Shown here piece after piece: positions 3-22,680 of a stretch of DNA of 64,000 nt; within the stretch, counting starts at the first letter, position 1, and each line of letters begins with the position of its first letter. The translations under genes and the position numbers were made by a program. Source of the DNA: Rhodobacter sp. SGA-6-6 (GTDB taxonomy: Bacteria > Pseudomonadota > Alphaproteobacteria > Rhodobacterales > Rhodobacteraceae); contig NZ_JAAKGP010000007.1 in assembly GCF_011043545.1 (NCBI RefSeq), positions 1 through 64,000 of the forward strand, written 5' to 3'. A model generated the notes under the pieces. The model was not told the origin of the DNA. It did no database searches and saw only the letters and a program-made list of their open reading frames with translations.

Positions 3-1688
3 TCACCGCCACAGCCGCGCCGCCTCTTCCGCCGTATAGCGCTCCAGCCGCACGTCCTCGGCCACCGCCGCCGGATCGCGCCGCGCCGGGTCGCCATAGC
101 CGCCGCCGCCCGGCGTGCGCACCCGCACCCGGTCGCCCGGCGCCAGCGCGATGTCCTGCGCCTTGGACAGGTGCTCGGGCACCAGCACCTCGCCGCCGCG
201 GCAGATCTCCACCCGGTTCACCGCCCCCTCGCCGCCGCCGAGCGCCCCCTGCGGCCCCACCCTGCCGTGGTCCATCACGAAGGAGGCCCGCGCCTCGCCG
301 CGCAGCAGCTCGATCTCGTAGTCCAGCCCGAAGCCGCCCCGCCACTCTCCCGCGCCGCCCGAGCCTTCATGCAGCGCATAGCGGCGATACAGCACCGGGA
401 ACTTCTGCTCCATGATCTCCACCGGCGGCGCCTTGGAGATGCCGATGGTGGAGCAGCCGTTGGCGATGCCGTCGCCGCCCCGGAACCCGCCGTAGCCGCC
501 GCCGGAAATCTGATACATCACATAGCCCGCCCCGGTCTCCGGGTCCGTCCCCCCCAGCCCGAAGTTGCCGGAGGTCCCCGCCGGCGCCGCCGTCACCCGG
601 TCGGGGATCGCCTGCACCAGCGCCGCGAAGACCGCCTCGGCGATCCGCTGGCTGACCTCCGCCGCGCAGCCCGAGACCGGGCGGGGATAATGGGCGTCGA
701 GGAAGGTGCCCTCGATCCCCACCACCTCCAGCGGCTCGAAGGCCCCGGCCGAGATCAGCACGTCGGGGAAGATGTGCCGCATCGCCAGATAGACCGAGGA
801 AAGCGTGGTCGCCCGCACCGAATTCATCGGCCCCATGCAGGGCGGCGAGGACCCGGCGAAATCGAACACCAGCCCGTCGCCTTGCCGCGTCACCGCCAGC
901 GCGATGGTCAGGGGCGCGTTCACCACCCCGTCGGAATCGAGGCAAGCCCGCGCCTGATACCGCCCCTCCGGGATCAGCCCGATCATCGCCCGCATCTGCC
1001 GCGCCGCCAGATCGCGCATCCGGGCGATGGCCTCCTCCACCACCGCATCGCCGTAGCGGTCCAGCAGCGCCGCCAACCGCTCCGCCCCCACCATCAGCGC
1101 CGAGGCTTGCGCCTTCACGTCGCCGATCCGCTGCTCGGAGACCCGGATGTTCGACCGGATGATCGCCCAGATCTCCGCATCCATGACTCCCTTCTTGAAC
1201 AGCTTCACCGGCGGCAGCCGCAGCCCCTCCTGCTCGGCGCTGATGGCGGAGGCGGAAAACCCGCCCGGCACCATCCCGCCGGTGTCCGGCCAATGCCCGG
1301 TGTTCGACAGCCAGCACCAGAGCCGCCCCTGCCGCCAGAACGGCATCACGAAGCGCACGTCCATCAGATGGGTGCCGCCGAGGTAGGGGTCGTTGACGAT
1401 GTAGATGTCCCCCGGCTCCGGCGCCGCCGTCTCGCCCGCGGCGATCCGCTCCACCAGCGTGCGGGTGGAGAACTGCATGACGCCGACGAAGACCGGCAGC
1501 CCCTTCGACCCTTGCGCGATCAGCGCCCCGTCCCCGGCCGCATAGATGCCGTCCGAGCGGTCGTCGGCCTCGGCGATCACCGGCGAGAAGGCCGCCCGCG
1601 AGAAGGTCAGGTCCATCTCGTCGCAGACCTGCTGCAACCCCGCCTGAATGACGGCAAGAGTAACCGGATCGACCATCGCCTTGCCCAT
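3..1688 (-). CDS. hyuB: Hydantoinase B/oxoprolinase family subunit (HyuB-like)
   Basis: This is the beta subunit of an ATP-dependent cyclic-amide hydrolase of the N-methylhydantoinase/5-oxoprolinase family, which opens a lactam or imide ring together with HyuA. The 561-residue product matches the family length (550-600). It contains the HyuB-typical stretches GGTHLMDVRF and NTGHWPDTGG in its N-terminal half, and a Gly-rich C-terminal half ending in TPGGGGYGDP. I chose the ATG at 1688, seven bases after GGGGA; an ATG at 1676 (MVDPVT) with AAGGCG before it is equally possible. A longer in-frame start at 1835 would run through the intergenic repeat and overlap hyuA, so I rejected it. It is the last gene of the catabolic operon. 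The exact substrate cannot be read from sequence. Confidence 0.85.
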   Translation of the reverse strand: MGKAMVDPVTLAVIQAGLQQVCDEMDLTFSRAAFSPVIAEADDRSDGIYAAGDGALIAQGSKGLPVFVGVMQFSTRTLVERIAAGETAAPEPGDIYIVNDPYLGGTHLMDVRFVMPFWRQGRLWCWLSNTGHWPDTGGMVPGGFSASAISAEQEGLRLPPVKLFKKGVMDAEIWAIIRSNIRVSEQRIGDVKAQASALMVGAERLAALLDRYGDAVVEEAIARMRDLAARQMRAMIGLIPEGRYQARACLDSDGVVNAPLTIALAVTRQGDGLVFDFAGSSPPCMGPMNSVRATTLSSVYLAMRHIFPDVLISAGAFEPLEVVGIEGTFLDAHYPRPVSGCAAEVSQRIAEAVFAALVQAIPDRVTAAPAGTSGNFGLGGTDPETGAGYVMYQISGGGYGGFRGGDGIANGCSTIGISKAPPVEIMEQKFPVLYRRYALHEGSGGAGEWRGGFGLDYEIELLRGEARASFVMDHGRVGPQGALGGGEGAVNRVEICRGGEVLVPEHLSKAQDIALAPGDRVRVRTPGGGGYGDPARRDPAAVAEDVRLERYTAEEAARLWR

Positions 1689-1690
1689 TT

Positions 1691-1780: not shown

Positions 1781-3805
1781 TCAACCCGCAAACCCCACCA
1801 CCAGATTGCCGTCCGCATCCGACCTCACCCGGCACCCAGGCTCCACCACCAGCGTGGTGTCCATCTGCTCGACGATCGCCGGCCCCGCCAGGTCCAGCGC
1901 CAGGGGCAGGTGGTCGCGCCAGTAGACCGGCGTCTCCACCCAGCCGCCGAACCAGACCGGCCGCGTGCCCGCAGGCTCCGCCTGCGGCTTCCGGCCCGCG
2001 GGGTCGATGAGCCGCGACAGGTCCGGCTCGGCGCGACGGCCGGTGACGCTGGCGGTCAGGTTGACCAGGTTGGCGCGGATTTCCGGCAGTTCCACCCGAA
2101 AGCGGGCGCGGTAGGCCGCCTCGAACAGGCGCTGCACCTCCTCGCGCGAGGGCGTGGCCGAGGGCAAGGGCACCCGCAGCAGATGGGTCTGGCCGACGAA
2201 CTGCATCTCGGCGGCGAACTCGGCGCGGATGTCGCGGATCTCCACCCGCTCCTCCCCGATCAGCCGCCGCCCCTCGGCCTCCTGCGCCGCAAGGATGGCA
2301 TGGACCTGCCCCATCTCCACCGCGTCCAGCGGCCGGTTCAGGGTGCGGACGAAATCGTGCCGCAGGTCGGCCACCACGCAGCCGAGCGCATTGGTGATCC
2401 CCGGCCGGGCCGGCACCAGCACCTGCGGCACCGCAAGCTCCCGCGCCAGCGCCACGGCATGAAGCGGCCCGGCGCCGCCGAAGGCGAACAGCGCGAAATC
2501 GCGCGGATCGGCGCCCATGGAAATCGACACCATGCGGATCGCCCCGGCCATATGGGTATTCGCGATCCGCACCACCGCCTCGGCGGCCGCCTCCACCCCA
2601 AGCCCCAGAGGCCGGGCGATCTGCCCCTCCATAGCCTGCCGCGCCGCCTCCGCCGCCTGACCGAAGCGGCTGGCCGGAAGCCGGCCGAGGATCAGGTTGG
2701 CATCCGACAGCGTGACCTTCGTGCCGCCGCGGCCGTAGCAGACCGGCCCGGGGTCCGACCCGGCCGAGTCCGGCCCGACCCGCAGCATCCCGCTGGCATC
2801 CACCCGGGCGATGGACCCGCCCCCTGCCCCCACGGTGCGCACGTCCACCATCGGCACATGGATCGGCATGGCATATTCCACCTCGATCTCGTTCGAGACC
2901 GGCGCGATGCCGCCGCGGATCATCGCCACGTCGGTGGAGGTGCCGCCCATGTCGTAGGTCAAGAGGTTGGGGAACCCCGCCCGCCGCCCGGTCGCCACCG
3001 CCGCCATCACGCCCGAGGCCGGGCCGGACATTACCGTCTTCACCGCCTCGCGCGCGACATGGGCCGCACTGACCATGCCGCCGTTGCCGTTCATCACCAG
3101 AAGGTCGCGGGCATAGCCGCGCGCCTTCAGCTCCCCGGCCAGCCGCGAGACGTAGCGCTCCAGCACCGGCTGGACGGAGGCATTCACCGCTGCCGTCACC
3201 CCGCGCTCGTATTCCCGCGCCTCGGAGAGGAGGGAATGGCCGGTGGTGACATAGCCATTCGGCCAGAGGGAAGCGGCGATCTCTGCCGCACGCAGTTCAT
3301 GCGCCGGATTGGCGTAGGAATGCAGGAAATGGATCACCAGCGCCTCGCAGCCCTGCGCCAGCAGGGCGCGGATGGCCGCGGCGACGGCCGCCTCGTCCAG
3401 CGGCGTGACCACCCTGCCCCGGGCATCCATCCGCTCCGGCACCTCCAGCCGCAGGTCCCGCGGGATGATCGGGGTGAAGCGGCCGGCCATGCCATAGGGC
3501 TGCGGCCGGGTGCGGCGGCCGAGTTCCAGCACGTCGCGGAAGCCTTCGGTGGTGATCAGGCCGGTCCTCGCCAGCCGCCGCTCCAGCACCGCATTGGTGG
3601 TGGTGGTGGTGCCGTGGACGATCAGGTCCAGGTTAGCAAGGTCGGTCCCCGCTTGCGCGAAGGCCGCCAGCACCCCGCCCGACTGGTTCGGCAAGGTGGT
3701 CGGCACCTTGGCCAGCCGCACCGCGCCCGAGGCCGGGTCGAAGACCACCAGGTCGGTGAAGGTGCCGCCGACATCCACCCCGGCGACGAGGCCCGTTTCC
3801 GTCAT
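1781..3805 (-). CDS. hyuA: Hydantoinase/oxoprolinase A subunit (HyuA-like)
   Basis: This is the ATP-binding alpha subunit of the cyclic-amide hydrolase, 674 residues. The N-terminus carries the ASKHA-fold phosphate motif GVDVGGTFTD (residues 9-18). The middle has TYDMGGTSTDVA, another hallmark of the family, followed by GAGGGSIA. The ATG at 3805 is preceded by a GGGGGCGGGG purine run. An upstream ATG at 3847, abutting the livF stop, would add 14 atypical residues. It lies directly downstream of livF and upstream of hyuB in one operon, so imported substrate or a ring-reduced intermediate is the likely target. Hydantoin, N-methylhydantoin, 5-oxoproline or another lactam are all possible. Confidence 0.87.
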   Translation of the reverse strand: MTETGLVAGVDVGGTFTDLVVFDPASGAVRLAKVPTTLPNQSGGVLAAFAQAGTDLANLDLIVHGTTTTTNAVLERRLARTGLITTEGFRDVLELGRRTRPQPYGMAGRFTPIIPRDLRLEVPERMDARGRVVTPLDEAAVAAAIRALLAQGCEALVIHFLHSYANPAHELRAAEIAASLWPNGYVTTGHSLLSEAREYERGVTAAVNASVQPVLERYVSRLAGELKARGYARDLLVMNGNGGMVSAAHVAREAVKTVMSGPASGVMAAVATGRRAGFPNLLTYDMGGTSTDVAMIRGGIAPVSNEIEVEYAMPIHVPMVDVRTVGAGGGSIARVDASGMLRVGPDSAGSDPGPVCYGRGGTKVTLSDANLILGRLPASRFGQAAEAARQAMEGQIARPLGLGVEAAAEAVVRIANTHMAGAIRMVSISMGADPRDFALFAFGGAGPLHAVALARELAVPQVLVPARPGITNALGCVVADLRHDFVRTLNRPLDAVEMGQVHAILAAQEAEGRRLIGEERVEIRDIRAEFAAEMQFVGQTHLLRVPLPSATPSREEVQRLFEAAYRARFRVELPEIRANLVNLTASVTGRRAEPDLSRLIDPAGRKPQAEPAGTRPVWFGGWVETPVYWRDHLPLALDLAGPAIVEQMDTTLVVEPGCRVRSDADGNLVVGFAG

Positions 3806-3847: not shown

Positions 3848-4543
3848 TCACACCCCCACGAAATCGGCGAATTGTCGGGCGCCGGGATGCAGGGCGGCGG
3901 CCTCGGCCACCTCCTCCACGCTGCCATGCGCCATGAAGGCCACCCGGTCCGCCATCCGCAGCACCGCCTCCACCCGCTGCTCGACCAGCACCACCGCCAC
4001 GCCCTCGGCCTTCAGCCGCAAGACCGCCTCGCGTATCAGGGCGATCATGCTGGGCTGCAACCCCTCGGTCGGCTCGTCCAGCAGCAGCACCTTCGGCTCC
4101 AGGCACAGCGCCCGGGCGATGGCCAGCATCTGCTGCTCGCCCCCTGACAGGGTGGCGGCGGGCTGGTTGAGACGCTCCCGCAGCCGGGGGAAGAGCGCCA
4201 GCACATGGTCCCGGACCTTCGCCCGGTTGCCGCGGATCAGTCCGCCGACATCGAGGTTCTCGGCCACGGTCAACGGGCCGAACAGCCGCCGCCCCTGCGG
4301 CACCCAGGCGAGGCCCTTTCCCGGCACCAGATGCGCGGGCAGGTCCTGGATCGCCTGCCCGTCCAGCATGACGGTGCCCGCCGAGACCGGCACGATCCCC
4401 ATGATCGCCTTCATCAGCGTGGTCTTGCCGGCGCCGTTGCGGCCCATGACGCAGGTGACCTCGCCCGCCCGGGCCGCGAAATCCACCCCGCGCAGCACGG
4501 TGACGGGGCCGTATCCGGCGGTGAGTCCGCGCAGCTCAAGCAC
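3848..4543 (-). CDS. livF: Branched-chain amino acid type ABC transporter ATPase LivF
   Basis: Second ATPase of a Liv/HAAT-type importer, 231 residues, cytoplasmic. Walker A is GRNGAGKTT at residues 34-42, the signature is LSGGEQQ, and Walker B is VLLLDEPTEGL. The EPTEGLQPS stretch is typical of LivF rather than LivG. It overlaps the livG stop by 8 bases, which implies translational coupling. Liv-type systems import amino acids, amides, short acids and aromatic or heterocyclic compounds. Co-transcription with heterocycle-degrading enzymes suggests that kind of substrate here, not leucine. Confidence 0.92.
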   Translation of the reverse strand: MLELRGLTAGYGPVTVLRGVDFAARAGEVTCVMGRNGAGKTTLMKAIMGIVPVSAGTVMLDGQAIQDLPAHLVPGKGLAWVPQGRRLFGPLTVAENLDVGGLIRGNRAKVRDHVLALFPRLRERLNQPAATLSGGEQQMLAIARALCLEPKVLLLDEPTEGLQPSMIALIREAVLRLKAEGVAVVLVEQRVEAVLRMADRVAFMAHGSVEEVAEAAALHPGARQFADFVGV

Positions 4544-5240
4544 CGAGATAGGCCTCCTGCACCGCCTTGTCGGCGCGGATCTCCGCCGGTGTCCCCCGCG
4601 CCAGAACCCGGCCGGAGGTCAGCACGGTGATGCGGGTGGCAAGGTCCATCACCACCTCCATGTTGTGCTCGATCAGCAGCACCGCGACCTGCGGCACCAG
4701 CCCGCGGACCAGCGCCTTGAAGCCCTCGATCTCGCCCGCCGCCAGCCCCTGCGTCGGCTCGTCCAGGATCAGCACCCGCGGCGCCAGCGCCAGTCCCATC
4801 GCCAGCTCCAGCAGCCGCTGGTGGCCGTAGGAGAGGGTTCCGGCCACCTCCGCCCCCATCCCTTGCAGCCCCACCCGGGCCAGCGCGGCCTCCACCGTGG
4901 GGCCGAGGGCCCCCGGCTGCCGCCCGCCCTGCACCGCCAGCGCCACGTTGTCGAAGACGGTCAGGCCGGGGAAGATGCTGGTGATCTGGAAGGTATAGGC
5001 CAGCCCGCGGCGGACGCGGGCATGGGCGGGCAGCCGGGTGATGTCCTCGCCCGCCAGCGTGATCGTGCCCGCCTGCGCCGGGATGCGGCCCGACAGCAGC
5101 GAGACCAGCGTGGTCTTGCCGGCGCCGTTCGGGCCGATCAGGGCGTGGATCTCGCCGGGCTCCAGGTCGAAATCCACCCCGTCCACGGCGCGGATGCCGC
5201 CGAAATGGCGCGTCAGGCCGCGGGCGGAGAGAAGGCTCAT
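4536..5240 (-). CDS. livG: Branched-chain amino acid type ABC transporter ATPase LivG
   Basis: First ATPase of the Liv-type importer, 234 residues. Walker A GPNGAGKTT lies at residues 36-44; LSYGHQRLLELAMGLA is the LivG-type signature region, and VLILDEPTQGLA is Walker B. The ATG at 5240 overlaps the livM stop in an ATGA tetranucleotide, and the C-terminus overlaps livF by 8 bases. LivG and LivF form the heterodimeric motor for LivH and LivM. Confidence 0.92.
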   Translation of the reverse strand: MSLLSARGLTRHFGGIRAVDGVDFDLEPGEIHALIGPNGAGKTTLVSLLSGRIPAQAGTITLAGEDITRLPAHARVRRGLAYTFQITSIFPGLTVFDNVALAVQGGRQPGALGPTVEAALARVGLQGMGAEVAGTLSYGHQRLLELAMGLALAPRVLILDEPTQGLAAGEIEGFKALVRGLVPQVAVLLIEHNMEVVMDLATRITVLTSGRVLARGTPAEIRADKAVQEAYLGA

Positions 5241-6169
5241 GGCAGCTCCCTCCACAGCCTCGCCCGCACCCAGCCGAGGATGCCCTTCGGCGCGAAGAGC
5301 ACCAGCACCACCAGCACAAGGCCCACAAGGAACAGCCAGGCCGAAGTGACGGAGGAGGCGAATTCGGTCAGGTAGAACATCAGCCCGGCCCCGAGCACCG
5401 CGCCCAAGGTGGTGCCGGCGCCGCCGAGAAGGACGTAGAGCATCGGCAGGATCGAATACTGGATTCCGGCGAAGCTGCCGCCGGCATAGCCGAACAGCAG
5501 CGCATATGCCGCCCCCGCCGCGCCGGACCAGGCGCCGGAGATCACCAGCACCTTCAGCTTGGCGGCGAAGGGGTTTATGCCCAGCATCCGTGCCCGCTCC
5601 TCGTTTTCCCGCAGCGCCACCATCACCCGGCCGAAGCGGGACCGCACCAGCGCCAGCGACAAGAGCAGACCGAGGGCGAAGAGGCTCCAGGCCGCCAGGA
5701 AGCGCGGGGTGTCGGCAGCGAGGGAGGTGCCGAAGAGGTGGCGCGAGGCGGAGGGGATGACGAAGCCCTCGTCGCCGCCGGTCCAGCCGTTGAAATAGAG
5801 GATCGCCAGCGCGAAGGCCTGGGCGAACATCAGCGTCACGATCATGAAGGAGACGCCTGCGGTGCGCAGCGCCAGCGCGCCCGTCGCCAGCGCCATCAGC
5901 GCGCCGCCGGCGGTTCCGGCCAGTAGCGCCGGCGCGGCGGGCCAGCCCCAATGCCAGGCGGGAAGGGCTGCGGCATACATGCCGGCGGCGAAGAACATGG
6001 CGTGGCCGAGGCTGAGGAGCCCGGTATAGCCGAAGGCGAGGTTGTAGCCGGCGGCGAAGGTGGCCAGCACCAGGATGCGGGCAAGGTTGGTGGTGTGGTA
6101 GCCGGGGAGCAGAAGCCCCGCCGCCAGCAGCGCAGCCAGCACCGCCAGATGGACCGCCCAGGCCCTCAT
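5237..6169 (-). CDS. livM: Liv-type ABC transporter permease LivM
   Basis: Inner-membrane permease, 310 residues, of the BPD_transp_2 family. It starts MRAWAVHLAVLAALLAAGLLLP and has the conserved FGYTGLLSLGHAMFFAAGMY loop region near residues 40-60, plus the LivM motif NEERARMLGINPF that couples to the ATPase. The start at 6169 overlaps the livH stop by ATGA, and the stop overlaps livG the same way. The stepwise 4-base overlaps show a tightly coupled livH-M-G-F block. Confidence 0.92.
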   Translation of the reverse strand: MRAWAVHLAVLAALLAAGLLLPGYHTTNLARILVLATFAAGYNLAFGYTGLLSLGHAMFFAAGMYAAALPAWHWGWPAAPALLAGTAGGALMALATGALALRTAGVSFMIVTLMFAQAFALAILYFNGWTGGDEGFVIPSASRHLFGTSLAADTPRFLAAWSLFALGLLLSLALVRSRFGRVMVALRENEERARMLGINPFAAKLKVLVISGAWSGAAGAAYALLFGYAGGSFAGIQYSILPMLYVLLGGAGTTLGAVLGAGLMFYLTEFASSVTSAWLFLVGLVLVVLVLFAPKGILGWVRARLWRELP

Positions 6170-7044
6170 GCCTTCGCCCCGAACAGGCCCTGCGGGCGGA
6201 ACACCAGCACCATGGCGACCAGCAGGGTCGCAAGGATCTTCGCCAGCGTCGGCGAGAAGAACATGCTGATGACGCCATCCGACAGCCCGATCACCAGCGC
6301 CGCCACCAGCGTGCCGCGGAGGGAGCCGAGGCCGCCGATGATCACCACGATGAACGAGAGCAGCAGCGGGTCGTGCCCCATCAGGTAATGCGCCTGGGAG
6401 ATCGGCACGTAGAGCACCGCCCCCATGGCGGCGAGACCGGCACCTAGGGCAAAGGTGCCCATATAGACCCGTTCCACGTCGATGCCGAAGGCGCGGGCGA
6501 CATCGCGGTCCACCTGCGTCGCCCGCATCACCAGCCCGGCCCGGGTGCGGGTCATCCCCAGCCAGACCGCCAGCAGCACCGCAACCGCCGCCGCGACCAC
6601 GAACAGCTTGTAGCCGGAATAGCCGAACCATGGCAGCTGGAAGCGCCAGTCGAAGGGGGCGGCGACGGGGCGGGCGTCGGGGCCGTAGAAGCTCAGCGCC
6701 GCCTGCTGGACCATATACATCACGCCGATGGTGGCGACGATGGTGGCCTCGGGGTCGTAGTTCAGCCGTTTCAGCACCAGCCCGTCCACCGCCGCCGCCA
6801 GCGCCCCGACGACCAGCGGCGCCAGCACCAGCGCCGCCAGGAAGGCCATCCATGCGGGCCCCGGGACCAGCCCGGCCACGAACCAGGCGATCACCGCGCC
6901 CAGCATGAAGAACTCGCCATGGGCGACGTTGACCACCCGCATGACGCCGAACACCAGCGAAAGCCCCACCGCCGCCAGCGACAGCACCGCGGCGGTGACC
7001 AGGCCCTCCATCAGGGCGAGAAGCAGGAAGGGACCGAAACCCAT
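6166..7044 (-). CDS. livH: Liv-type ABC transporter permease LivH
   Basis: Inner-membrane permease, 292 residues, with about eight hydrophobic segments. The early segment GLSLVFGVMRVVNVAHGEFF is the standard LivH signature. It pairs with LivM. The gene follows the binding-protein gene after 39 bases containing a GC-rich stem-loop, an arrangement that often leaves binding protein in excess over membrane components. Confidence 0.92.
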   Translation of the reverse strand: MGFGPFLLLALMEGLVTAAVLSLAAVGLSLVFGVMRVVNVAHGEFFMLGAVIAWFVAGLVPGPAWMAFLAALVLAPLVVGALAAAVDGLVLKRLNYDPEATIVATIGVMYMVQQAALSFYGPDARPVAAPFDWRFQLPWFGYSGYKLFVVAAAVAVLLAVWLGMTRTRAGLVMRATQVDRDVARAFGIDVERVYMGTFALGAGLAAMGAVLYVPISQAHYLMGHDPLLLSFIVVIIGGLGSLRGTLVAALVIGLSDGVISMFFSPTLAKILATLLVAMVLVFRPQGLFGAKA

Positions 7045-7083: not shown

Positions 7084-8361
7084 TCAGAACGACATCGCCG
7101 TGTAGTCGGTGTCGTTGTCGTAGAGCCCTTCCTCGATCGTGGTCTGGTGCACCCGCACCAGCTTGCCGCCCTCCATCTTCGAGATGTTCTGCACCCCGAA
7201 GGCCTGGTGCTTCTTGCCGTCGAAGCGCATCGGCCCCTGCGGCCGCTCTGCGCCTTCGGGCAGGTCGGTCACCGCCTCCATCGCCTCGACCAGCTTTTGC
7301 CGGTCGGCCGGGCCGGCATAGCCGGAAGCCTCCACCGCCTGCTTGATGAAGTAGAGCGTCTCCCAGCAGGAGAACATATGGGCATAGGTCGACACGTCCT
7401 TGGCATCGCTGACCGAGGCGCCGTTGTCGTCCACCCCCACCGCGGCGCGATAGGCGGTCTCGGCCTCGCCGGCGTCGGCGGGCTTCGCCCGGCAATGGCC
7501 CTCCCAGAAATGGCTGCCCTCCAGGAACTCCAGTCCCGGCGAGGCGGTGTCCACCGCCTCCAGGCTGTCGATGAAGCCGAACAGGGCGGGCTTGGCGCCG
7601 GTGCCGTAGAACTCTCCCAGCTCCTTGACGAAGGTCAGCACGGCGGGGCCGACCATGACGTGATACAGCACTTCGGTCTCGGCCGGGATCTGCGGGAAAT
7701 AGCGGGTGAAGCTGGTCTCGGTCGGCGGGATGGCGATCTGGGCGATCACCTCGCCGCCCTGCGCGGCGATGGCGGTGGTGAAGAAATCACGGTGGTCATG
7801 GCCGAAGGCATAGTCGGGGAAGACCATCGTCACCTTCTTGCCGAGGGTCGAGGCGACCCAGGGCGCCATGGTGGAAATCTGCGCCCGCACGTCGGTGATG
7901 CCGGGCTGCAGCACCCAGCGGTTCAGCGCGCCGGAGGCGACGTGATAGCCCTCGGAACAGACCAGATAGGGGATTTTCAGCTCCCCCGCCCGCGGCGCCG
8001 CGCCCATGACGACATGGGAGAACAGCGTCCCCATGATCAGGTCGCAGCCCGAAGGGCCGGCCAGCTTCTCCACCACTTCCGCGCCGCGCTTGGGGTCGGT
8101 GGCGTCATCCTCGTAAAGGATCTCCACCTGCCGCCCGGCGATGCCGCCGGCGGCGTTGATCGCCGCGGCGGCGGCGGTGGTCGTCCGCTCATACCAGCGG
8201 CCGTAAGCCGCGCCGATGCCGGTGCGGTGCAGCTGGAAGCCGATCTTCAACGGCGCCGCCTGCCCCCAGACATGCCCCGGCAGCGCGGCCGTCGCCAGAC
8301 CGGCCCCCATGCCTTGCAGCACCCGGCGGCGGGACGGCGTGAACAGCGAAGTCGTGGTCAT
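7084..8361 (-). CDS. Liv-type ABC transporter substrate-binding protein
   Basis: Periplasmic solute-binding protein of the Peripla_BP_6 (LivJ/AmiC/UrtA-like) family, 425 residues. The N-terminus (residues 10-33) is a twin-arginine-like signal, SRRRVLQG followed by a hydrophobic Ala/Gly stretch and a cleavage-like VWGQA, so Tat export is plausible. The mature part begins LKIGFQLHRTGIGAAYGRWY and has the family's ILYEDDATDPKRG segment. It is the receptor for the adjacent livHMGF and defines specificity, but I cannot name the ligand. The ATG at 8361 follows a GGGGAGAGAGAAAG purine tract. Confidence 0.88.
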   Translation of the reverse strand: MTTTSLFTPSRRRVLQGMGAGLATAALPGHVWGQAAPLKIGFQLHRTGIGAAYGRWYERTTTAAAAAINAAGGIAGRQVEILYEDDATDPKRGAEVVEKLAGPSGCDLIMGTLFSHVVMGAAPRAGELKIPYLVCSEGYHVASGALNRWVLQPGITDVRAQISTMAPWVASTLGKKVTMVFPDYAFGHDHRDFFTTAIAAQGGEVIAQIAIPPTETSFTRYFPQIPAETEVLYHVMVGPAVLTFVKELGEFYGTGAKPALFGFIDSLEAVDTASPGLEFLEGSHFWEGHCRAKPADAGEAETAYRAAVGVDDNGASVSDAKDVSTYAHMFSCWETLYFIKQAVEASGYAGPADRQKLVEAMEAVTDLPEGAERPQGPMRFDGKKHQAFGVQNISKMEGGKLVRVHQTTIEEGLYDNDTDYTAMSF

Positions 8362-11249: not shown

Positions 11250-11276
11250 CGCCCGGCTTCCCGCCGCCTTTCCTCT

Positions 11277-11309
11277 TTCTGGACGGCAAATATCCCCGCC
11301 GGAGGCCCC
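11277..11309. repeat. Intergenic GGGGATATTTG element, variant copy
   Basis: On the minus strand this reads GGCCTCCGGCGGGGATATTT followed by GCCGTCCAGAAAG. It is a variant of the CCCCGG(A/G)ATATTTGG element seen at four other gaps in this window. It lies between the 6-hydroxynicotinate reductase-like gene and the preferred UPF0280 start, which supports the shorter UPF0280 start. Confidence 0.6.
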
Positions 11310-11350
11310 GGCCGCCGCCAGGACCGCCGCTGTAGGAGAGAGGGCCCCGC

Positions 11351-15560: not shown

Positions 15561-16375
15561 AGCGCCGCCTCCACCGCCCGGCGGACCAGTTCGGCCGCCG
15601 CCCGCAGCCGATACGCCGCACTCGCCCGCACGTCGTCGATGGGCGCCAGCGCCGCCGCCACCGCAGCCGGATCGACCCGGGCCGCGGCGCCCTCCACCGG
15701 CCCGCAGAGCGCCGCCTCCACCGAAGGCAGCCGGCGGGGCACCGGGGAACAGGCGCCGACCGCCACCGCCGCCGCCTCGATCCGCCCGCCCGAGACCTCC
15801 AGCCGCACCGCGGCCGAGGCGATGGAGATCACCAGATGCGCCCGCGCGCCCAGCTTGCCGAAGGCGGAAACGCCCGCCAGCCCTGCCCGCGGCAGCAGCA
15901 CCGCCGCGAGCAGTTCTCCCGGCCGCAGGTCCACGCGCCGGGGTCCGAGCAGGAAATCCTCCAGCGCCAACAGCCGGGTGCCGGTGGCGGAGGCCAGTTC
16001 CACCTTCGCCCCAAGCACCAGAAGCGGCGGCACCCCGTCGGCGGCGGGAGAGGCGTTGCAGAGGTTGCCGCCGATTGTGCCGGCGTTCTGCACCTGCCGC
16101 CCGCCGACCTGCAGCGCCGCCTGTTGCAGGGCGCGGGTGGCGGGGGGCAGCGACGCCTCGGCAATAGCGGTCCAGCTGGTGCAGGCGCCGATCCGCAACC
16201 CCTCCGGCCCCTCGGCGATCCCCGTGATCCCGGGCAGGGCGGCGAGGTCCATCACCGGCCCCTTCAGCCGCGGCCCCGCCAGCGGATAAAGATCCGTCCC
16301 GCCCGCCAGCACCCGCGCCCCGCCCGCTGCCGCGGCCAGCGCCTGCTCCAGGCTGTCGGGGCGAAGGTAATCCAT
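15557..16375 (-). CDS. Molybdenum hydroxylase FAD-binding subunit (CoxM/XdhB-type)
   Basis: The 272-residue flavin subunit passes electrons from the 2Fe-2S clusters to the acceptor. It has the two FAD-binding signatures: VLAGGTDLYPL (about residues 22-32) and TIGGNLCNASPAAD (about 95-108). The C-terminal CO_deh_flav_C region follows. The ATG at 16375 begins MDYLRPDSLEQAL, a usual family start. This is the first gene of the minus-strand operon. Its promoter region (16376-16480) is shared with the divergent marR and contains inverted repeats. Confidence 0.88.
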   Translation of the reverse strand: MDYLRPDSLEQALAAAAGGARVLAGGTDLYPLAGPRLKGPVMDLAALPGITGIAEGPEGLRIGACTSWTAIAEASLPPATRALQQAALQVGGRQVQNAGTIGGNLCNASPAADGVPPLLVLGAKVELASATGTRLLALEDFLLGPRRVDLRPGELLAAVLLPRAGLAGVSAFGKLGARAHLVISIASAAVRLEVSGGRIEAAAVAVGACSPVPRRLPSVEAALCGPVEGAAARVDPAAVAAALAPIDDVRASAAYRLRAAAELVRRAVEAAL

Positions 16376-16462: not shown

Positions 16463-16490
16463 TATGGTCCATTCGGGCGCATGGACCATA
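16463..16490. promoter_or_regulatory. Ten-base inverted repeat over the marR start codon
   Basis: TATGGTCCAT (16463-16472) and ATGGACCATA (16481-16490) are perfect inverted arms separated by eight bases. The right arm includes the marR start codon. It could be an autoregulatory operator or translation-blocking hairpin. It may instead be one copy of a dispersed ATGGACCAT repeat that also occurs around the desaturase gene at 38-39 kb. Confidence 0.5.
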
Positions 16491-16897
16491 CGGGCTATGT
16501 GCTGGACGAGCAGATCGGCTTCCTGCTGCGCCGGGTGACGCAGCGGCATCTGGCGATCTTCGCCAGGGAAATCCCGCAGGTCACCACCACCCAATTCGCC
16601 CTGCTGGCCCGGCTGGCCGAACTGGGGCCGCAGTCGCAGAACGCGCTCGGCCGCGAGACGGCGATGGATGCGGCGACGGTGAAGGGCGTGGTGGACCGGC
16701 TGGTGCGGCAGGGGCTGGTCGCCACCGCCCCCGATCCGGCCGACCGCCGCCGCCGGACCGTGGCGCTGACGCCGGAGGGCCGGGCGCTGTTCGACCGGCT
16801 GGCGCCGGTCGCGCTGCAGGTCAGCGCCCTGACACTGGAGCCGCTGGAGGACAAGGACGCCGCCCTGCTGACCCGGCTGCTGGCGCGGCTTGCCTAA
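16481..16897 (+). CDS. MarR family transcriptional regulator
   Basis: A 138-residue winged-helix regulator. The recognition region QNALGRETAMDAATVKGVVD is followed by DPADRRRRTVALTPEGRALF, the MarR wing (about residues 85-104). It is divergent from the 13-gene catabolic operon and tail-to-tail with tetR: its TAA (16895-16897) overlaps the tetR TAG. MarR proteins next to aromatic-catabolism operons usually repress until a pathway ligand binds; that role here is inferred. The ATG at 16481 lacks a strong Shine-Dalgarno sequence and lies within an inverted repeat. Confidence 0.85.
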   Translation: MDHTGYVLDEQIGFLLRRVTQRHLAIFAREIPQVTTTQFALLARLAELGPQSQNALGRETAMDAATVKGVVDRLVRQGLVATAPDPADRRRRTVALTPEGRALFDRLAPVALQVSALTLEPLEDKDAALLTRLLARLA

Positions 16898-17529
16898 AGC
16901 GAATGCCGCGCCCGGAAGGCCGCCACCTCTGCAGCCGAGGGGGCGACGCCGGTGAAGACCAGCGCATAGGAGGGGATGCGGGCCATCCGCGCCGCGAAAT
17001 CCTCTTCCGAGCGGAGCGCGATATAGCCGACCTGGGTCAGGTAGACCGTGCGGGCGCGGGTGTCCGCCTCCTCCGCCGGATAGCCGTGGCGCAGGAAGAG
17101 CCCGGTCAGCGCGGCGATCCGCGCCGCATCCTCCTGGGCCAGCGCGGCCTCCACCGCCGGGTCGGTCAGCGCCCAGGTCCGCATGGCGAATTCCGCCGCC
17201 GAATCAAAGACCTGCGCATCCACCCAGGCGTCGAACAGCGCCAGCACCGCCTCGGTCACCGTCGCCGCGGGCCGGTCGATCCGCGCCACCAGCGCCGCGG
17301 TGTTGGTCTCGCGCCAGCGGGCGACCAGCGCCGCCAGCAGCGCCTCGCGGTCGGCGAAATGCCAGTAGAACGAGGTTCGCGACAGGCCGAGCCGGGCCGC
17401 CAGCGGGCCGATCTTCACCGCCTCGACGCCCCCCTCGATCAGGAGCGCGTGCGCCCCCTCCAGCCACAGCGCGGCCGAGCCGCGCCAGCCGCGATCCTTC
17501 GCTTCCGCCTCTTCCGCCACCTTGTCCAT
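16894..17529 (-). CDS. TetR family transcriptional regulator
   Basis: A 211-residue TetR-type repressor. The N-terminal helix-turn-helix (about residues 40-60) reads IGPLAARLGLSRTSFYWHFA, the best-conserved part of the family; the all-helical ligand-binding C-terminus diverges as usual. It is divergent from the StcD-like gene, with a long palindrome (17589-17612) between them. It is therefore probably the local repressor of the demethylase/amidase unit and of itself. Stop codons of tetR and marR overlap. Confidence 0.87.
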   Translation of the reverse strand: MDKVAEEAEAKDRGWRGSAALWLEGAHALLIEGGVEAVKIGPLAARLGLSRTSFYWHFADREALLAALVARWRETNTAALVARIDRPAATVTEAVLALFDAWVDAQVFDSAAEFAMRTWALTDPAVEAALAQEDAARIAALTGLFLRHGYPAEEADTRARTVYLTQVGYIALRSEEDFAARMARIPSYALVFTGVAPSAAEVAAFRARHSL

Positions 17530-17676: not shown

Positions 17677-19740
17677 ATGTCCCATCCCCAGCCCCGCCCC
17701 TCGAACGACCCGCTGCTGCAACCCTACCGGCTGCACCACCTGACCCTGCGCAACCGCATCATCACCACCGCCCACGAACCCGCCTATGGCGAGGACGGGC
17801 TGCCGAAGGACCGCTACCGGCTTTATCATCTGGAGCGGGCCAAGGCCGGGGTGGCGATGGTGATGACCGCGGGATCGGCCTCGGTCAGCCGCGACAGCCC
17901 GCCGGTGTTCTCCAACCTGCTGGTCTGGAAGGACGAGGTGGTGCCGTGGATGAAGCGGCTGACCGACGATTGCCACGAGGCCGGCGCGGCGGTGATGATC
18001 CAGCTGTCCCACCTCGGCCGCCGCACCCGCTGGGACAAGGGCGACTGGCTGCCGGTGGTCGCCCCCGGGCCGGTGCGCGAACCCAGCCACCGCGCCTTCC
18101 CCAAGGTAATCGAGGACTGGGACATCTCCCGCATCATCCGGGACTATGCCGATGCCGCCGAGCGGATGGCGGCCTCCGGCGTCGATGGCATCGAGTTCGA
18201 GTGCTACGGCCACCTGATGGACCAGTTCATCAGCCCGCTGACCAATGCGCTGGAGGACAGCCCCTACGGCGGCCCCGGCCTCGACAACCGGCTGCGCTTC
18301 GCCTTCGAGGTGCTGGAAGCCTGCCGCCAGCGGGTGGGCGAGAAGGTCCTGCTGGGCCTGCGCTACACCGCCGACGAGGACGCCCCCGGCGGCCTGCCCG
18401 TAGAGGACGGGGTGGAGATGGCGCGGCGCTTCAAGGCCTCCGGCCTGGTCGATTTCGTCAACGTCATCCGCGGCCGCATCCACACCGATGCCGCGCTGAC
18501 CGACGTGATCCCGGTGCAGGGGATGCGCTCGGCCCCGCATCTGGACCTGGCCGGGCGGATCAGGGCCGAGGTCGGCCTGCCCACCTTCCACGCCGCCCGC
18601 ATCCCGGACGTGGCGACGGCGCGCCATGCGGTTTCCTCGGGCCTGGTGGACATGGTGGGGATGACGCGGGCGCATATGGCCGACCCGCATGTGGTGCGGA
18701 AGATCGTCGAGGGGCGCGAGCACGACATCCGCCCCTGCGTCGGCGCCACCTATTGCCTGGACCGGATCTACCAGGGCGGCATGGCCCTTTGCATCCACAA
18801 CCCGGCGACGGGCCGGGAAGAGACCATGCCGCACGACATCCCCGCCGCAGAAGTGGCGAAGACTGTGGTGGTGGTCGGCGCCGGCCCCGGCGGGCTGGAG
18901 GCGGCGCGGGTCGCCGCCGAGCGCGGGCACCGGGTCACGGTGTTCGAGGCCGGGCCGCGGGCCGGCGGGCAGGTGCTCTTGACGGCGCAGCAGAAACGGC
19001 GGTCCGAGATGATCGGCATCGTCGACTGGCGGATGGAGCAATGCACCGCCAAGGGGGTGACGTTCCACTTCAACACCTGGGCCGAAGCCTCTGACGTGAC
19101 GGCGCTTTCCCCGGATGTGGTGATCATCGCCACCGGCGGATTGCCGCAGCCGGTGGGCCTTGCCTCGGGCGAGGAGCTTTGCGTGCAGGCCTGGGACATC
19201 CTCTCAGGTGACGTGAAGCCCGGCTCGAACGTGCTGCTTTACGACGACGCCGGCGACCATACCGCGATGCAGACCGCCGATGCGCTGGCCGCGGCAGGAG
19301 CGACGGTCGAGGTGATGACCCCCGACCGCAGCTTCGCGCCCGAGGTGATGGGGATGAACCTCGTCCCCTATATGCGCAGCCTGCAAGGGAAATCCGTCAC
19401 CTTCACCGTCACCTACCGGCTGCTGTCGGCGGCGCGCGACGGCAACCGGCTGAAGGCGGTGATCGGCTCGGACTACATCGCCGACCTGGCGCTGGAGAAG
19501 CACTACGACCAGATCGTGGTGAACCACGGCACCGCGCCGAACGCCGATCTCTACTTCGCGCTGAAGCCCCTGTCCGAGAATCTCGGCGCGGTGGATTACG
19601 ACGCGCTGATCGACGGGCGGCCGCAGCCGCAGGGCGACGGGCCGAAGGGCTTCCGCCTCTACCGGATCGGCGATGCGGTGGAAAGCCGCAACACCCATGC
19701 GGCGATCTATGACGCGCTGCGGCTGATGAAGGACATCTGA
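17677..19740 (+). CDS. StcD-like FMN/Fe-S/FAD demethylase (N-methylproline demethylase family)
   Basis: A 687-residue old-yellow-enzyme-type protein. An N-terminal FMN TIM barrel (about 1-340) is followed by an Fe-S segment and a C-terminal FAD/NAD(P) domain with VVVVGAGPGGLEAARVAAERG (about 402-422). Stretches such as DPLLQPYRLHHLTLRNRI and LSHLGRRTRWDKGDWLPV closely resemble StcD, the N-methylproline demethylase of stachydrine catabolism. The Fe-S ligand region is C354-VGA-TY-C360-x11-C372: relative to trimethylamine dehydrogenase (CxxCxxC), the second Cys is Ala357. The N-terminus has no VPHC Cys for covalent FMN. The ATG at 17677 has AAAGG ten bases upstream. It probably oxidises an N-methyl or cyclic amine, substrate unproven. 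Confidence 0.83.
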   Translation: MSHPQPRPSNDPLLQPYRLHHLTLRNRIITTAHEPAYGEDGLPKDRYRLYHLERAKAGVAMVMTAGSASVSRDSPPVFSNLLVWKDEVVPWMKRLTDDCHEAGAAVMIQLSHLGRRTRWDKGDWLPVVAPGPVREPSHRAFPKVIEDWDISRIIRDYADAAERMAASGVDGIEFECYGHLMDQFISPLTNALEDSPYGGPGLDNRLRFAFEVLEACRQRVGEKVLLGLRYTADEDAPGGLPVEDGVEMARRFKASGLVDFVNVIRGRIHTDAALTDVIPVQGMRSAPHLDLAGRIRAEVGLPTFHAARIPDVATARHAVSSGLVDMVGMTRAHMADPHVVRKIVEGREHDIRPCVGATYCLDRIYQGGMALCIHNPATGREETMPHDIPAAEVAKTVVVVGAGPGGLEAARVAAERGHRVTVFEAGPRAGGQVLLTAQQKRRSEMIGIVDWRMEQCTAKGVTFHFNTWAEASDVTALSPDVVIIATGGLPQPVGLASGEELCVQAWDILSGDVKPGSNVLLYDDAGDHTAMQTADALAAAGATVEVMTPDRSFAPEVMGMNLVPYMRSLQGKSVTFTVTYRLLSAARDGNRLKAVIGSDYIADLALEKHYDQIVVNHGTAPNADLYFALKPLSENLGAVDYDALIDGRPQPQGDGPKGFRLYRIGDAVESRNTHAAIYDALRLMKDI

Positions 19741-19843: not shown

Positions 19844-20602
19844 ATGCGGCTGGCACTCTGGCAGGGGCATTCCCCCGCCTCCGACCTCGGGCTGGCGCTG
19901 GCGCAGGCCGAGGCCGCGCTGGCGGCGGCGGGGGCGATGGCGGCGGATGCGCTGGTGCTGCCGGAGGTCTGGCTGCCGGGCTACAACCAGCCGATCTCGG
20001 CGGCGAATGCCCTGCCGCCGGACGCGCCCGAGTTCGACCGCCTGTCCCGCGCCGCCGCAGAGGCCCGCTGCGCAGTGGTGGTCGGCTATGCCGAGCGCGA
20101 CGGCGAGAGGGTGTTCAACTCCGCCCTCTGCCTCGGCTCGGACGGGCGGCGGCTGGCGCATTACCGCAAGATCCAGCTCTACGGGCCGCGCGAGAAGGCG
20201 ATCTACTGCCCCGGCGCGGCCTATGTCACCTTCCCGCTGGCCGGAGAGACCGCGGCGCTGCTGATCTGCTACGACGTGGAATTCGCCCCGCATGTCAAGG
20301 CCTTGGCCGACAGAGGGGCGACGGCGATCCTGGTCCCCACCGCCAACATGCAGCCCTATGCCCATGTCGTCCGCGCCACCGTGCCGGCGATGGCGGCGAA
20401 CCATGGCGTCGCCATCGCCTATGCCAATTACTGCGCCAGCGAGGGCGACCTGACGTATCTCGGCGGCAGCCTGATCGCCGGGCCGCATGGCGAAATCCTC
20501 GCCCAAGCCGGCGAAAGCCCGGCGCTGCTGGTCGCCAACATCCCCGCCCGCCGCCCCGCGCATCTGTCCACCCAGTCCGCCGACCTGAGACGCATCGAAT
20601 GA
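19844..20602 (+). CDS. Carbon-nitrogen hydrolase (nitrilase superfamily amidase)
   Basis: A 252-residue cytoplasmic amidase/N-carbamoylase-type enzyme with the complete catalytic triad: E41 in LVLPEVWLPGY, K109 in HYRKIQLYG and C142 in LLICYDVEF. The length is typical of the single-domain family. The ATG at 19844 has a GGGGAGAAG ribosome-binding site. The stop overlaps the next gene by four bases (ATGA). It may hydrolyse the linear amide left after ring opening; nitrile activity is less likely from the CYDVEF signature. The substrate is inferred from context. Confidence 0.85.
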   Translation: MRLALWQGHSPASDLGLALAQAEAALAAAGAMAADALVLPEVWLPGYNQPISAANALPPDAPEFDRLSRAAAEARCAVVVGYAERDGERVFNSALCLGSDGRRLAHYRKIQLYGPREKAIYCPGAAYVTFPLAGETAALLICYDVEFAPHVKALADRGATAILVPTANMQPYAHVVRATVPAMAANHGVAIAYANYCASEGDLTYLGGSLIAGPHGEILAQAGESPALLVANIPARRPAHLSTQSADLRRIE

Positions 20603-22680
20603 CCCGCGATCCCCGCCACGACATCCTGTTCATGCCGCTGCGGATCGGCCCCAAGACCGCGAAGAACCGCTTCTACCAGGTGCCGCATTGCAACGGCGGC
20701 GGCTACCGCGACCCCTCGGCGGTGGTCGAGATGCGGCGGACCAAGGCCGAGGGCGGCTGGGGCGTGATCTTCACCGAGCAGACCGAGATCCACCCCTCCA
20801 GCGAGATCACCCCCTTCATCGAGCAGCACCTCTGGGACGACCGCGACATCCCGGCGCTGGCGCGGATGGCCGAGGCGATGAAGTCGCACGGGGCGCTTGC
20901 CGGGATTCAGCTTGCCTATTCAGGCATCAACGGGCCGAACCTCTACTCGCGCGAGGTGCCGCTGGCGGTGACCGGCGGGCCGATCCTGACCTTCACCTCG
21001 GACCCGGTGCAGGCCCGCACCATGGACCGCGAGGACATCCGCTCCTTGAGGCGTTGGTTCCGCAACGCCTTCCGCCGGTCGCGGCAGGCGGGCTTCGACC
21101 TGATCTGCCTCTACGGCGCCCATGGCTTCGGCATCCTGCAGCATTTCCTGTCGCGCGCCACCAACCAGCGGACCGACGAATACGGCGGGAGCCTGGAGAA
21201 CCGCGCGAGGTTTCTGCGCGAAGTGGTTGAAGAGGCTCGGGAAGAGACGAAAGGCGAACTCGCCGTCAGCCTGCGGATGTCGCTGCACGAAGCCGGACCC
21301 TACGGCTTTTCCAACGCCGAGCTGCGCGATTTCATCGAGATGCATGGCGAGCTGCCCGACATCTGGGACCTCGCCAACGGCACCTGGGAGGCCTGCTCCG
21401 GCACCTCGCGCTTCAAGGAGGAGGGTGCGCAGGAACAGCTGGTCGCCGGGATCAAGGCGCTGACGCCGAAGCCGGTGGTGGGCGTCGGCCGCTTCACCAG
21501 CCCGGATGCGATGATACGGCAGATCAGGACCGGCGTGCTGGATTTCATCGGCGCGGCAAGGCCCTCCATCGCGGACCCGTTCCTGCCGGTGAAGGTGCAG
21601 GAAGGCCGCTACGAGGACATCCGCGAGTGCATCGGCTGCAACATCTGCGTCTCCGGCGACATGACCGGGGGGATTTCCCGCTGCACCCAGAACACCGCCT
21701 TCATGGAGGAATGGCGCAAGGGCTGGCACCCCGACCGGGCGCGGCCGAAGGGGCCGTCGCAATCGGTGCTGGTCGTCGGCGCCGGTCCGGCGGGGCTGGA
21801 GGCCGCGCTGCAAGCCGCCCGCCGCGGCTATGCGGTGACGCTGGCCGAGGCGACGACCACGCTCGGCGGCCGGGTGGCGCGGGAACGCGCGCTGCCGGGC
21901 CTGTCGGCCTGGGGCCGGGTGGCGGATTACCGCACCGGCCAGATGGCGCCGATGCCGAATGTCGAGATCTACCGCGACAGCCGGCTGACGGCCGAGGACA
22001 TCCTGTCGATGGGCGCCGATCACGTCGCCATCGCCACCGGCGCGGTCTGGCGGCGCGATGCGGTGGCGCGGCTGCACCTGCACCCGATCCCGACCGATCC
22101 GGCGATGCCCATCTATACGCCCGACGACCTGATGGCGGGGAACGTGCCGGAGGGACTCCGCGTAACCCTTTACGACGACGATCATTTCTACATGGGCTCG
22201 GTGCTGGCCGAACTGCTGGTGGCGAAGGGCTGCCGGGTCGATTTCGTCACCCCGGCGGTGAAGGTGGCGGAATGGGCGGAGAACACGCTGGAACAGGGCA
22301 CGATCATGCGACGGCTGCTGGAGATCGGGGTGGAGGTCCACGTCAGCAAGGCCCCGGAAGCCATTGGCCGGAATGAGGTAACGCTCGGCTGCACCTGGAC
22401 CGGGCGGCAATCGGCGCTGGCGGCCGAGGCGGTGGTGATGGTCACCAGCCGCAGCCCGGAGGATGCGCTTTACCGCGAGACGAAGGCGATGGACTGGCAG
22501 GAGGCGGGCATCCGCAGCCTGCAGCTGATCGGCGATGCCGCGGCGCCGGGGCCGATCGCCTGGGCGACCTATGCCGGGCGACGCTGGGCGGAGGATCTGG
22601 ATGCGCCGGAGCGCGGCGATGACCTGGCCTTCCGGCGCGAGATCGCAGGGCTGCTGCCGGAGGTGCGGATCACGCCGTAA
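20599..22680 (+). CDS. Trimethylamine/dimethylamine dehydrogenase-like (DgcA-type) flavoprotein
   Basis: A 693-residue Fe-S flavoprotein closely resembling trimethylamine and dimethylamine dehydrogenases and dimethylglycine demethylase DgcA. C31 in FYQVPHC corresponds to the Cys that binds FMN covalently in trimethylamine dehydrogenase. YGAH (Y172, H175) and IWD match its active-site Tyr, His and Trp/Asp. The 4Fe-4S ligands are C344-x2-C347-x2-C350-x11-C362. The C-terminus is an FAD/NAD-like domain starting VLVVGAGPAGLEAALQA. It overlaps the amidase by ATGA. It likely removes a methyl group from a secondary or tertiary amine, giving formaldehyde and passing electrons to an electron-transfer flavoprotein that is not encoded here. 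Confidence 0.84.
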   Translation: MTRDPRHDILFMPLRIGPKTAKNRFYQVPHCNGGGYRDPSAVVEMRRTKAEGGWGVIFTEQTEIHPSSEITPFIEQHLWDDRDIPALARMAEAMKSHGALAGIQLAYSGINGPNLYSREVPLAVTGGPILTFTSDPVQARTMDREDIRSLRRWFRNAFRRSRQAGFDLICLYGAHGFGILQHFLSRATNQRTDEYGGSLENRARFLREVVEEAREETKGELAVSLRMSLHEAGPYGFSNAELRDFIEMHGELPDIWDLANGTWEACSGTSRFKEEGAQEQLVAGIKALTPKPVVGVGRFTSPDAMIRQIRTGVLDFIGAARPSIADPFLPVKVQEGRYEDIRECIGCNICVSGDMTGGISRCTQNTAFMEEWRKGWHPDRARPKGPSQSVLVVGAGPAGLEAALQAARRGYAVTLAEATTTLGGRVARERALPGLSAWGRVADYRTGQMAPMPNVEIYRDSRLTAEDILSMGADHVAIATGAVWRRDAVARLHLHPIPTDPAMPIYTPDDLMAGNVPEGLRVTLYDDDHFYMGSVLAELLVAKGCRVDFVTPAVKVAEWAENTLEQGTIMRRLLEIGVEVHVSKAPEAIGRNEVTLGCTWTGRQSALAAEAVVMVTSRSPEDALYRETKAMDWQEAGIRSLQLIGDAAAPGPIAWATYAGRRWAEDLDAPERGDDLAFRREIAGLLPEVRITP

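Follow-up and report, generated by a model that had tools for sequence, protein, structure and literature searches.

Which compound is broken down by the genes at the head of one contig of Rhodobacter sp. SGA-6-6? The DNA analysed here, referred to as the window, comprises the first 64,000 nucleotides of contig NZ_JAAKGP010000007.1 (C65 in a genome of 4.29 Mb), and begins at base 1 of that contig, right behind the stop codon of a HyuB gene. HyuB (from position 3) is the last of 13 minus-strand genes that start with the FAD subunit of a molybdenum (Mo) hydroxylase (position 16375) and include a homologue of 6-hydroxynicotinate reductase (Hnr). The original prediction took these genes, together with plus-strand genes extending to position 22680, as one undescribed pathway for an N-methylated pyridine, pyrrolidone or similar ring. 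It is argued here that the 13 genes quite probably constitute an operon for nicotinate catabolism by the reductive route, with HyuA and HyuB (HyuAB) in the place of enamidase. The identities, order and conservation of the genes, the mutual exclusion of HyuB and enamidase, and the coupling of UPF0280 to Hnr were observed directly; the reactions and substrates are all predicted.

Gene order and conservation of the operon

The genes of the operon and its divergent regulator are as follows.

3–1688, minus: HyuB, hydantoinase B/oxoprolinase subunit, candidate ring-opening lactamase (PF02538, 515 bits)
1781–3805, minus: HyuA, hydantoinase A, ATP-binding subunit (PF01968, PF05378, PF19278)
3848–4543, minus: LivF-type ABC ATPase
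4536–5240, minus: LivG-type ABC ATPase
5237–6169, minus: LivM-type permease (PF02653)
6166–7044, minus: LivH-type permease (PF02653)
7084–8361, minus: LivK-type substrate-binding protein of a candidate nicotinate importer (PF13458)
8448–9848, minus: membrane protein of an unnamed family, about 10 hydrophobic segments by hydropathy
9845–10426, minus: DUF1185 or 'amino acid synthesis' protein (PF06684, 214 bits; structures 3byq, 2qtp)
10419–11366, minus: UPF0280, predicted ApbE fold, proposed flavin-loading partner of Hnr (NF003322, 358 bits, cut-off 290)
11351–12787, minus: Hnr, 6-hydroxynicotinate reductase, named from homologues, nearly all at least 60% identical, and from plasmid annotations
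12876–15560, minus: fused 2Fe-2S and molybdopterin subunit, proposed nicotinate hydroxylase (PF01799, PF00111, PF02738, PF20256)
15557–16375, minus: FAD subunit of the Mo hydroxylase (PF00941, PF03450)
16481–16897, plus: MarR regulator, divergent, conserved with the cluster, possible sensor of 6-hydroxynicotinate

In the proposed route, nicotinate would be imported by LivKHMGF and converted to 6-hydroxynicotinate by the FAD and Fe-S/Mo hydroxylase, and Hnr would reduce this to 1,4,5,6-tetrahydro-6-oxonicotinate (THON). HyuAB, as an ATP-dependent lactam hydrolase, would open THON, with loss of ammonia, to 2-formylglutarate, which would then proceed to glutarate. UPF0280 would mature or serve Hnr, the product of ring opening may be a substrate of DUF1185, and MarR may sense an intermediate such as 6-hydroxynicotinate.

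All 13 genes lie between positions 3 and 16375 in the predicted order, seven of the junctions overlapping by 4–16 bp and the other five being separated by 39–92 bp. The families named in the original prediction for the FAD, Fe-S/Mo, UPF0280, DUF1185, Liv, HyuA and HyuB proteins were likewise borne out by Pfam and NCBIfam; family assignments were confirmed for all of the operon's proteins except Hnr and the membrane protein at 8448–9848, for which no model in either database was matched. The latter is nevertheless a conserved protein, and its gene adjoins that of LivK in many loci.

Hnr relatives turned up in 79 of the 198 family genomes, in 46 of 289 class genomes, where two matches at E about 1e–4 are spurious, and in 21 of 299 phylum genomes; these sets overlap, and each counts the window's own genome. 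Outside that genome the relatives are 54–84% identical to the window protein, nearly all at 60% or more. An Hnr relative is encoded in at least 570 stretches of the genome collection, and the best 80 of these, from Rhodobacterales, Rhizobiales, SAR116 and others, were taken as loci (L088–L167). When their open frames were grouped, Hnr was counted in at least 78, the Mo subunit in at least 72, DUF1185 in at least 68, UPF0280 in at least 65, the FAD subunit in at least 53, MarR in at least 40, HyuA in at least 29 and the membrane protein in at least 25, these being minimum counts, as many of the loci are truncated.

The entire 13-gene order, with the divergent MarR gene, is present on a plasmid of Fuscovulum ytuae, where each protein is 65–87% identical to its counterpart and a gene for an 'ATP-binding protein' comes after the operon. 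A Pleomorphomonas plasmid carries the set Hnr-UPF0280-DUF1185-HyuA-HyuB-'nicR'. Among plasmid records having an Hnr homologue, 17 of 26 annotate it as '6-hydroxynicotinate reductase'.

Two SAR116 loci (L162:12284–21387 and L118:2486–11615) are arranged differently. Hnr and UPF0280 are followed there by a membrane protein and a different Liv system, and these loci also contain a second Mo hydroxylase (FAD, 2Fe-2S and Mo subunits) and a lactonase-like metallo-hydrolase; no DUF1185 gene was seen in the stretch. Tandem DUF1185 paralogs, two in number, occur in many clusters (e.g. L277:14449–15713).

Ring-opening enzymes and the candidate substrate

In Eubacterium barkeri, THON is an enamide that is opened by an amidohydrolase. 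No enamidase match was obtained in the window genome at E ≤ 1e–30. From the 139 Hnr-positive genomes found, 80 were picked by hand and each was searched for enamidase and HyuB, which were counted as present at identities of at least 63% and 64%, respectively; weaker paralogs (36–40% and 41–59%) were left out. It is apparent that the two enzymes are nearly mutually exclusive: enamidase only was found in 29 genomes, HyuB only in 50 and both in one (G655), and no genome had neither (Fisher 6e–21, for related genomes and with kinship ignored). The HyuB ortholog was thus counted in 51 of the 80 genomes, the window's included. Within 20 kb of Hnr lay 21 of the 30 enamidases and 32 of the 51 HyuB genes. 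In 79 Hnr-negative control genomes enamidase was absent (0/79) and HyuB was counted once (a partial gene, 83% identical, in G022, a genome 85% complete), with an additional match at 58% in G208.

A tree of Hnr from 78 of the 80 genomes, built by a quick method with SH-aLRT support only, shows the enamidase and HyuB states interleaved. The minimum number of changes is eight, and the well-supported branches by themselves force five to six switches. Because of this mutual exclusion, the repeated switches and the near-absence of both enzymes from Hnr-negative genomes, it is most likely that HyuAB replaces enamidase in the opening of THON.

HyuA and HyuB carry Hydantoinase_A, Hydant_A_N and Hydantoinase_B domains, and belong to the same families as caprolactamase (CapAB), 5-oxoprolinase and N-methylhydantoinase, the last two of which are also the relatives of HyuA among PDB structures. 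Their best NCBIfam match is CapAB, from which the window pair differs in standing in an Hnr context and in scoring under the cut-offs.

The identity of the ring was approached through the neighbours of Hnr in related clusters. In locus L164, from Bradyrhizobium, Hnr is 70% identical to the window protein, UPF0280 55%, DUF1185 50%, MarR 54% and the Liv system 32–42%. This locus also encodes a nicotinate phosphoribosyltransferase, a Mo/cytochrome c hydroxylase with a 2Fe-2S partner, and an amidohydrolase that is plainly an enamidase (2vun, 370 bits, E 1.5e–109, nearly full length). The set is repeated on a Comamonadaceae plasmid, whose amidohydrolase shares 70% identity with that enamidase. The layout of L164 agrees with that of a nicotinate cluster published for strain SG-6C, B. 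japonicum and R. palustris (PMC3511419), and the same source describes SG-6C using up nicotinate while 6-hydroxynicotinate appeared. Two unknown proteins of the published cluster would correspond to UPF0280 and DUF1185. Both of these genes adjoin Hnr in the enamidase-bearing clusters of Bradyrhizobium and Comamonadaceae, so neither sets the operon apart from nicotinate clusters, as had been proposed, whereas HyuAB does.

One nicotinamidase-family protein recurs in 25 of the best 80 Hnr loci, mostly just upstream of the FAD gene; the label rests on one scanned representative (NCBIfam score of 201.6 against a cut-off of 174). Within 20-kb Hnr stretches its gene was found in four HyuB-only genomes, in the one genome having both ring-openers and in two enamidase-only genomes. 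Since it accompanies both types, the substrate is likely to be the same in both. Judged by these gene neighbours, nicotinate is the likely substrate of the HyuAB-type cluster, and the range probably extends to nicotinate derived from nicotinamide. An undescribed pathway for an N-methylated ring is unlikely, because Hnr is about 70% identical to the Bradyrhizobium protein, which lies among nicotinate phosphoribosyltransferase and enamidase genes, and because the nicotinamidase-family gene is so frequent in the best loci. The term 'undescribed' had to be given up, the Hnr family being that of clusters agreeing with published ones (PMC3511419), as did the N-methylated ring, the linked genes in homologous clusters being those for nicotinamidase and nicotinate phosphoribosyltransferase. 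The more general expectation, an N-heterocycle operon combining Mo hydroxylation, Hnr-type ring reduction and, probably, amide opening by HyuAB, held.

With respect to known systems, the window operon shares the Mo hydroxylase (its substrate being predicted) and Hnr (by comparison with Bradyrhizobium L164) with the reductive nicotinate pathway of E. barkeri and of Azorhizobium/Bradyrhizobium, and UPF0280, DUF1185, the Liv importer and MarR with the Bradyrhizobium cluster. It is regarded as a variant rather than a plain member of that pathway, because enamidase is unmatched and HyuAB is present instead. The kind of pathway is already known; the new point is the exchange of HyuAB for enamidase. 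The hydroxylases differ as well, that of the window consisting of the FAD and fused Fe-S/Mo subunits and that of L164 being of the Mo/cytochrome c type, to which the window genome has no match at E ≤ 1e–150. Among the 80 Hnr-positive genomes the fused type was found in 69 and the Mo/cytochrome type (at least 55% identity) in 10, one genome having both and two neither; one of these two, G392, does have part of a gene, at the end of a contig. All four combinations of hydroxylase and ring-opener occur: FAD/Mo with HyuAB in the window, FAD/Mo with enamidase in G003 and G038, Mo/cytochrome with HyuAB in G046, and Mo/cytochrome with enamidase in G511 and its kin, taken as Bradyrhizobium from 78–82% identity to L164. 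The nic pathway of Pseudomonas putida likewise leads from nicotinate through 6-hydroxynicotinate under a MarR-type regulator, NicR (PMC6837509), from which the window route would differ in that the ring is reduced and not cleaved by a dioxygenase.

Several observations weigh against the proposed route. DUF1185 was not seen adjoining Hnr in several clusters, G655 holds both ring-openers, and the ring-opener is unlinked to Hnr, lying at a distance of over 40 kb or on a separate contig, in 9 of the 30 genomes with enamidase and 17 of the 51 with HyuB. The NCBIfam cut-offs for caprolactamase are not reached (HyuB against CapB-like NF050157, 298 bits; HyuA against CapA-like NF050156, 494 bits; both cut-offs 1000), and no assay of any HyuAB-variant enzyme was found in the open-licence literature searched, nor, among the matches listed, a nicotinate route using HyuAB. 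The window's own cluster contains no nicotinamidase-family gene. The expense of ATP on THON is also odd, given that this enamide is opened by an amidohydrolase in E. barkeri, and another reduction could precede the HyuAB step instead.

In that last case a second reduction, e.g. by the flavoenzyme OYE1 encoded beside the operon, would yield the saturated lactam 6-oxopiperidine-3-carboxylate, and HyuAB would produce 2-(aminomethyl)glutarate in place of 2-formylglutarate. The relatives of HyuA and HyuB do include enzymes for stable lactams (caprolactamase, 5-oxoprolinase), and OYE1 resembles ene reductases and adjoins the cluster in the window. Most HyuAB-type clusters, however, have no OYE1 in the stretch seen, and no other enzyme searched for tracks HyuAB, which makes this version of the pathway rather improbable.

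A comparably low probability is given to the idea that the same route serves another pyridine, related by N-methylation or carboxylation (trigonelline, homarine/picolinate or isonicotinate), with HyuAB marking a different substrate instead of replacing enamidase. The type of hydroxylase and Hnr does not fix the substrate, and the window cluster has no linked nicotinamidase. The carriers include marine Rhodobacterales and SAR116, homarine being a common marine metabolite with an N-methyl ring, for which a pathway appeared in print in 2026 (as cited in PMC13390433). Trigonelline degradation, for its part, involves TgnF, a protein of the DUF1185 type (as cited in PMC7913881). Nicotinate is nonetheless favoured, in that HyuAB-type clusters are linked to the nicotinamidase-family gene, a NicAB-type hydroxylase accompanies HyuAB in G046, where the two are linked, and was also found in G630, and the swap between enamidase and HyuAB took place repeatedly inside one tight Hnr family. 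Apart from OYE1, moreover, no demethylase family was found in four or more of the best 80 loci, where families with no counterpart in the window were identified for eight representatives only.

UPF0280, Hnr and the MarR protein

UPF0280 (NF003322) was detected in 78 of the 198 family genomes, namely in 77 of the 79 with Hnr and in one without, and in none of 14 control genomes. The lone carrier (G155) has a fragment at a contig end, and the two genomes with Hnr only have a partial Hnr gene (G008) or an Hnr gene at a contig end (G132). In genome G014 (C28:4385–6521) the Hnr and UPF0280 genes each contain several in-frame stops, as if decaying together.

An AlphaFold2 (AF2) model of UPF0280, made with 38 sequences (predicted TM score, pTM, 0.86), best matched DVU1097, a UPF0280-like structure (DUF375; Z 20.3). 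The next 19 entries were all flavin transferases of the ApbE/Ftp/FmnB group (Z 13.9–15.8 over 204–216 residues, identity 13–18%), followed by urate oxidase at Z 8.2; Foldseek ranks 3–41 also belonged entirely to that group. UPF0280 thus appears to have the ApbE fold. In V. cholerae ApbE, His257 is one of the conserved residues used in catalysis (PMC12052999). UPF0280 may depart from this: no His is invariant among its 38 sequences, alignment columns 50 and 53 being 95% His and column 233 84% His. The ApbE target motif (DxxSGAT-type; PMC12052999) was found in 0 of 51 Hnr sequences. A shared fold does not, of course, establish a shared reaction.

In Hnr from E. barkeri, a flavin is covalently attached and Fe-S clusters are present. 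In the 51 Hnr sequences, eight Cys residues are invariant and two nearly so. The Thr of a 'GCGSATIG' stretch was considered as a flavin site and rejected, Ala being present in some members. Comparison of the Hnr sequence with PDB gave nothing credible (best E 0.23 and 0.26), and its AF2 model (pTM 0.70) gave a best VIA Z of 4.1 and, at E ≤ 0.001, nothing in Foldseek; a model of this weakness does not allow the fold to be called new.

The co-occurrence in 77 of 79 genomes and the predicted ApbE-type fold suggest that UPF0280 may be a dedicated partner that loads the flavin of Hnr. A broader combination is put forward tentatively and with some doubt: a cytoplasmic, ApbE-fold UPF0280 would load the Hnr flavin, perhaps covalently; HyuAB would be an ATP-driven and repeatedly exchanged replacement for enamidase; and Hnr with UPF0280 would form a chassis for nicotinate breakdown, with exchangeable first and third enzymes, in many alpha-proteobacteria. 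No paper treating UPF0280 together with Hnr was found in the open-licence literature, nor, among the matches listed, any link of UPF0280 with ApbE.

A ferredoxin--NADP-reductase-like gene, whose representative scored under the NCBIfam cut-off, is present in 14 of the best 80 loci, mostly adjoining HyuA (e.g. L134:18690–19556 and L277:10884–11657). It occurs also in enamidase-type clusters, and could supply electrons to Hnr.

The MarR proteins retain a Y-x7-[F/Y/H]-x2-R-x5-H motif in 95 of 107 sequences, five of them with His at the first variable site. BpsR contacts 6-hydroxynicotinate through Tyr15, His23, Arg26 and His32 (PMC6837509), and the spacing of the motif equals that of these contacts, by the published residue numbers and not by alignment with BpsR; the position of His23 is mostly Phe or Tyr. 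The MarR protein of the Pleomorphomonas cluster is annotated as NicR. The window MarR is a possible sensor of 6-hydroxynicotinate.

Plus-strand neighbours of the operon

Beyond MarR, the remainder of the proposed 22 kb island consists of the following genes.

16894–17529, minus: TetR regulator, accessory, with OYE1 in close relatives (PF00440; 6 of the best 80 loci)
17677–19740, plus: OYE1, OYE/dienoyl-CoA-reductase-type flavoenzyme, lineage-specific neighbour (PF00724)
19844–20602, plus: nitrilase-superfamily amidase (PF00795), partner of OYE2 and probably outside the operon
20599–22680, plus: OYE2, histamine-dehydrogenase-like, separate unit (6de6, 1058 bits; 1djn, 496 bits)

Two regulators do lie between the units, as originally described (MarR on the plus strand, TetR on the minus strand). 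The claim that the entire island is one N-methylated-ring pathway, in which the two OYE proteins would be demethylases and would act late, as would the nitrilase, was not upheld and is considered very unlikely. In its favour are the adjacency of the genes in the window and the presence of OYE1 beside the cluster in 10 of the best 80 loci, all with Hnr 78–87% identical. The nitrilase and OYE2, on the other hand, were found in none of those 80 loci, and the 27 kb seen of the Fuscovulum ytuae plasmid, with its 13-gene operon, contain no TetR, OYE or nitrilase gene.

OYE2, described in the original prediction as trimethylamine-dehydrogenase-like, is closer to histamine dehydrogenase (6de6, and 3k30 at 822 bits) than to trimethylamine dehydrogenase (1djn), and histamine dehydrogenase is its nearest relative among solved structures. 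Orthologs (at least 64% identical) were found in 37 of the 198 genomes: 19 had both OYE2 and Hnr, 18 OYE2 only, 60 Hnr only and 101 neither (Fisher p = 0.14, kinship ignored). In the 18 other double carriers no OYE2 gene was seen within 100 kb of Hnr when compared by eye; four carry the two genes on a single contig, separated by about 102 kb in the closest case, and the rest on different contigs. The nitrilase gene overlaps that of OYE2 and adjoins it in 9 of 20 OYE2 loci, among them the eight nearest (window included). Since OYE2 is distributed independently of Hnr, was not seen linked to it elsewhere and is paired with the nitrilase, positions 19844–22680 are considered a separate unit outside the nicotinate operon, perhaps for histamine or another primary amine; the pair, conserved in near relatives, could be a small amine-degradation unit. 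OYE1, which may or may not be StcD-like as originally described, adjoins the cluster in 5 of the 80 Hnr-positive genomes (window included), which are near relatives, and the sole solved structures matching it at E ≤ 1e–40 are the ene reductase NCR and 2,4-dienoyl-CoA reductase; it is at most an accessory gene. OYE1, the nitrilase and OYE2 thus lie outside the core operon, mostly, it appears, as a separate unit.

Farther along the window, a Fur-family gene (22756–23193) stands beside minus-strand genes (23249–26510) for a MacB-like ABC permease, scoring under the NCBIfam cut-off, and a membrane-fusion protein judged by eye from its sequence to be HlyD-like. Positions 26566–51202 hold housekeeping genes: B12-dependent ribonucleotide reductase, enolase, pyruvate dehydrogenase E1 alpha, E1 beta and E2, and a phosphoglycerate-kinase-like gene (under the cut-off).

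An island of unexplained N-ring genes thereby becomes a testable operon for the degradation of vitamin B3; its Hnr has relatives in at least 570 stretches, some of them from marine Rhodobacterales and SAR116. Within the poorly assigned HyuA/HyuB family, one branch gains a concrete candidate substrate, and UPF0280 and, more loosely, DUF1185 gain roles that can be checked. Annotation by enamidase only would miss degraders of the HyuAB type, which make up 50 of the 80 Hnr-positive genomes examined.

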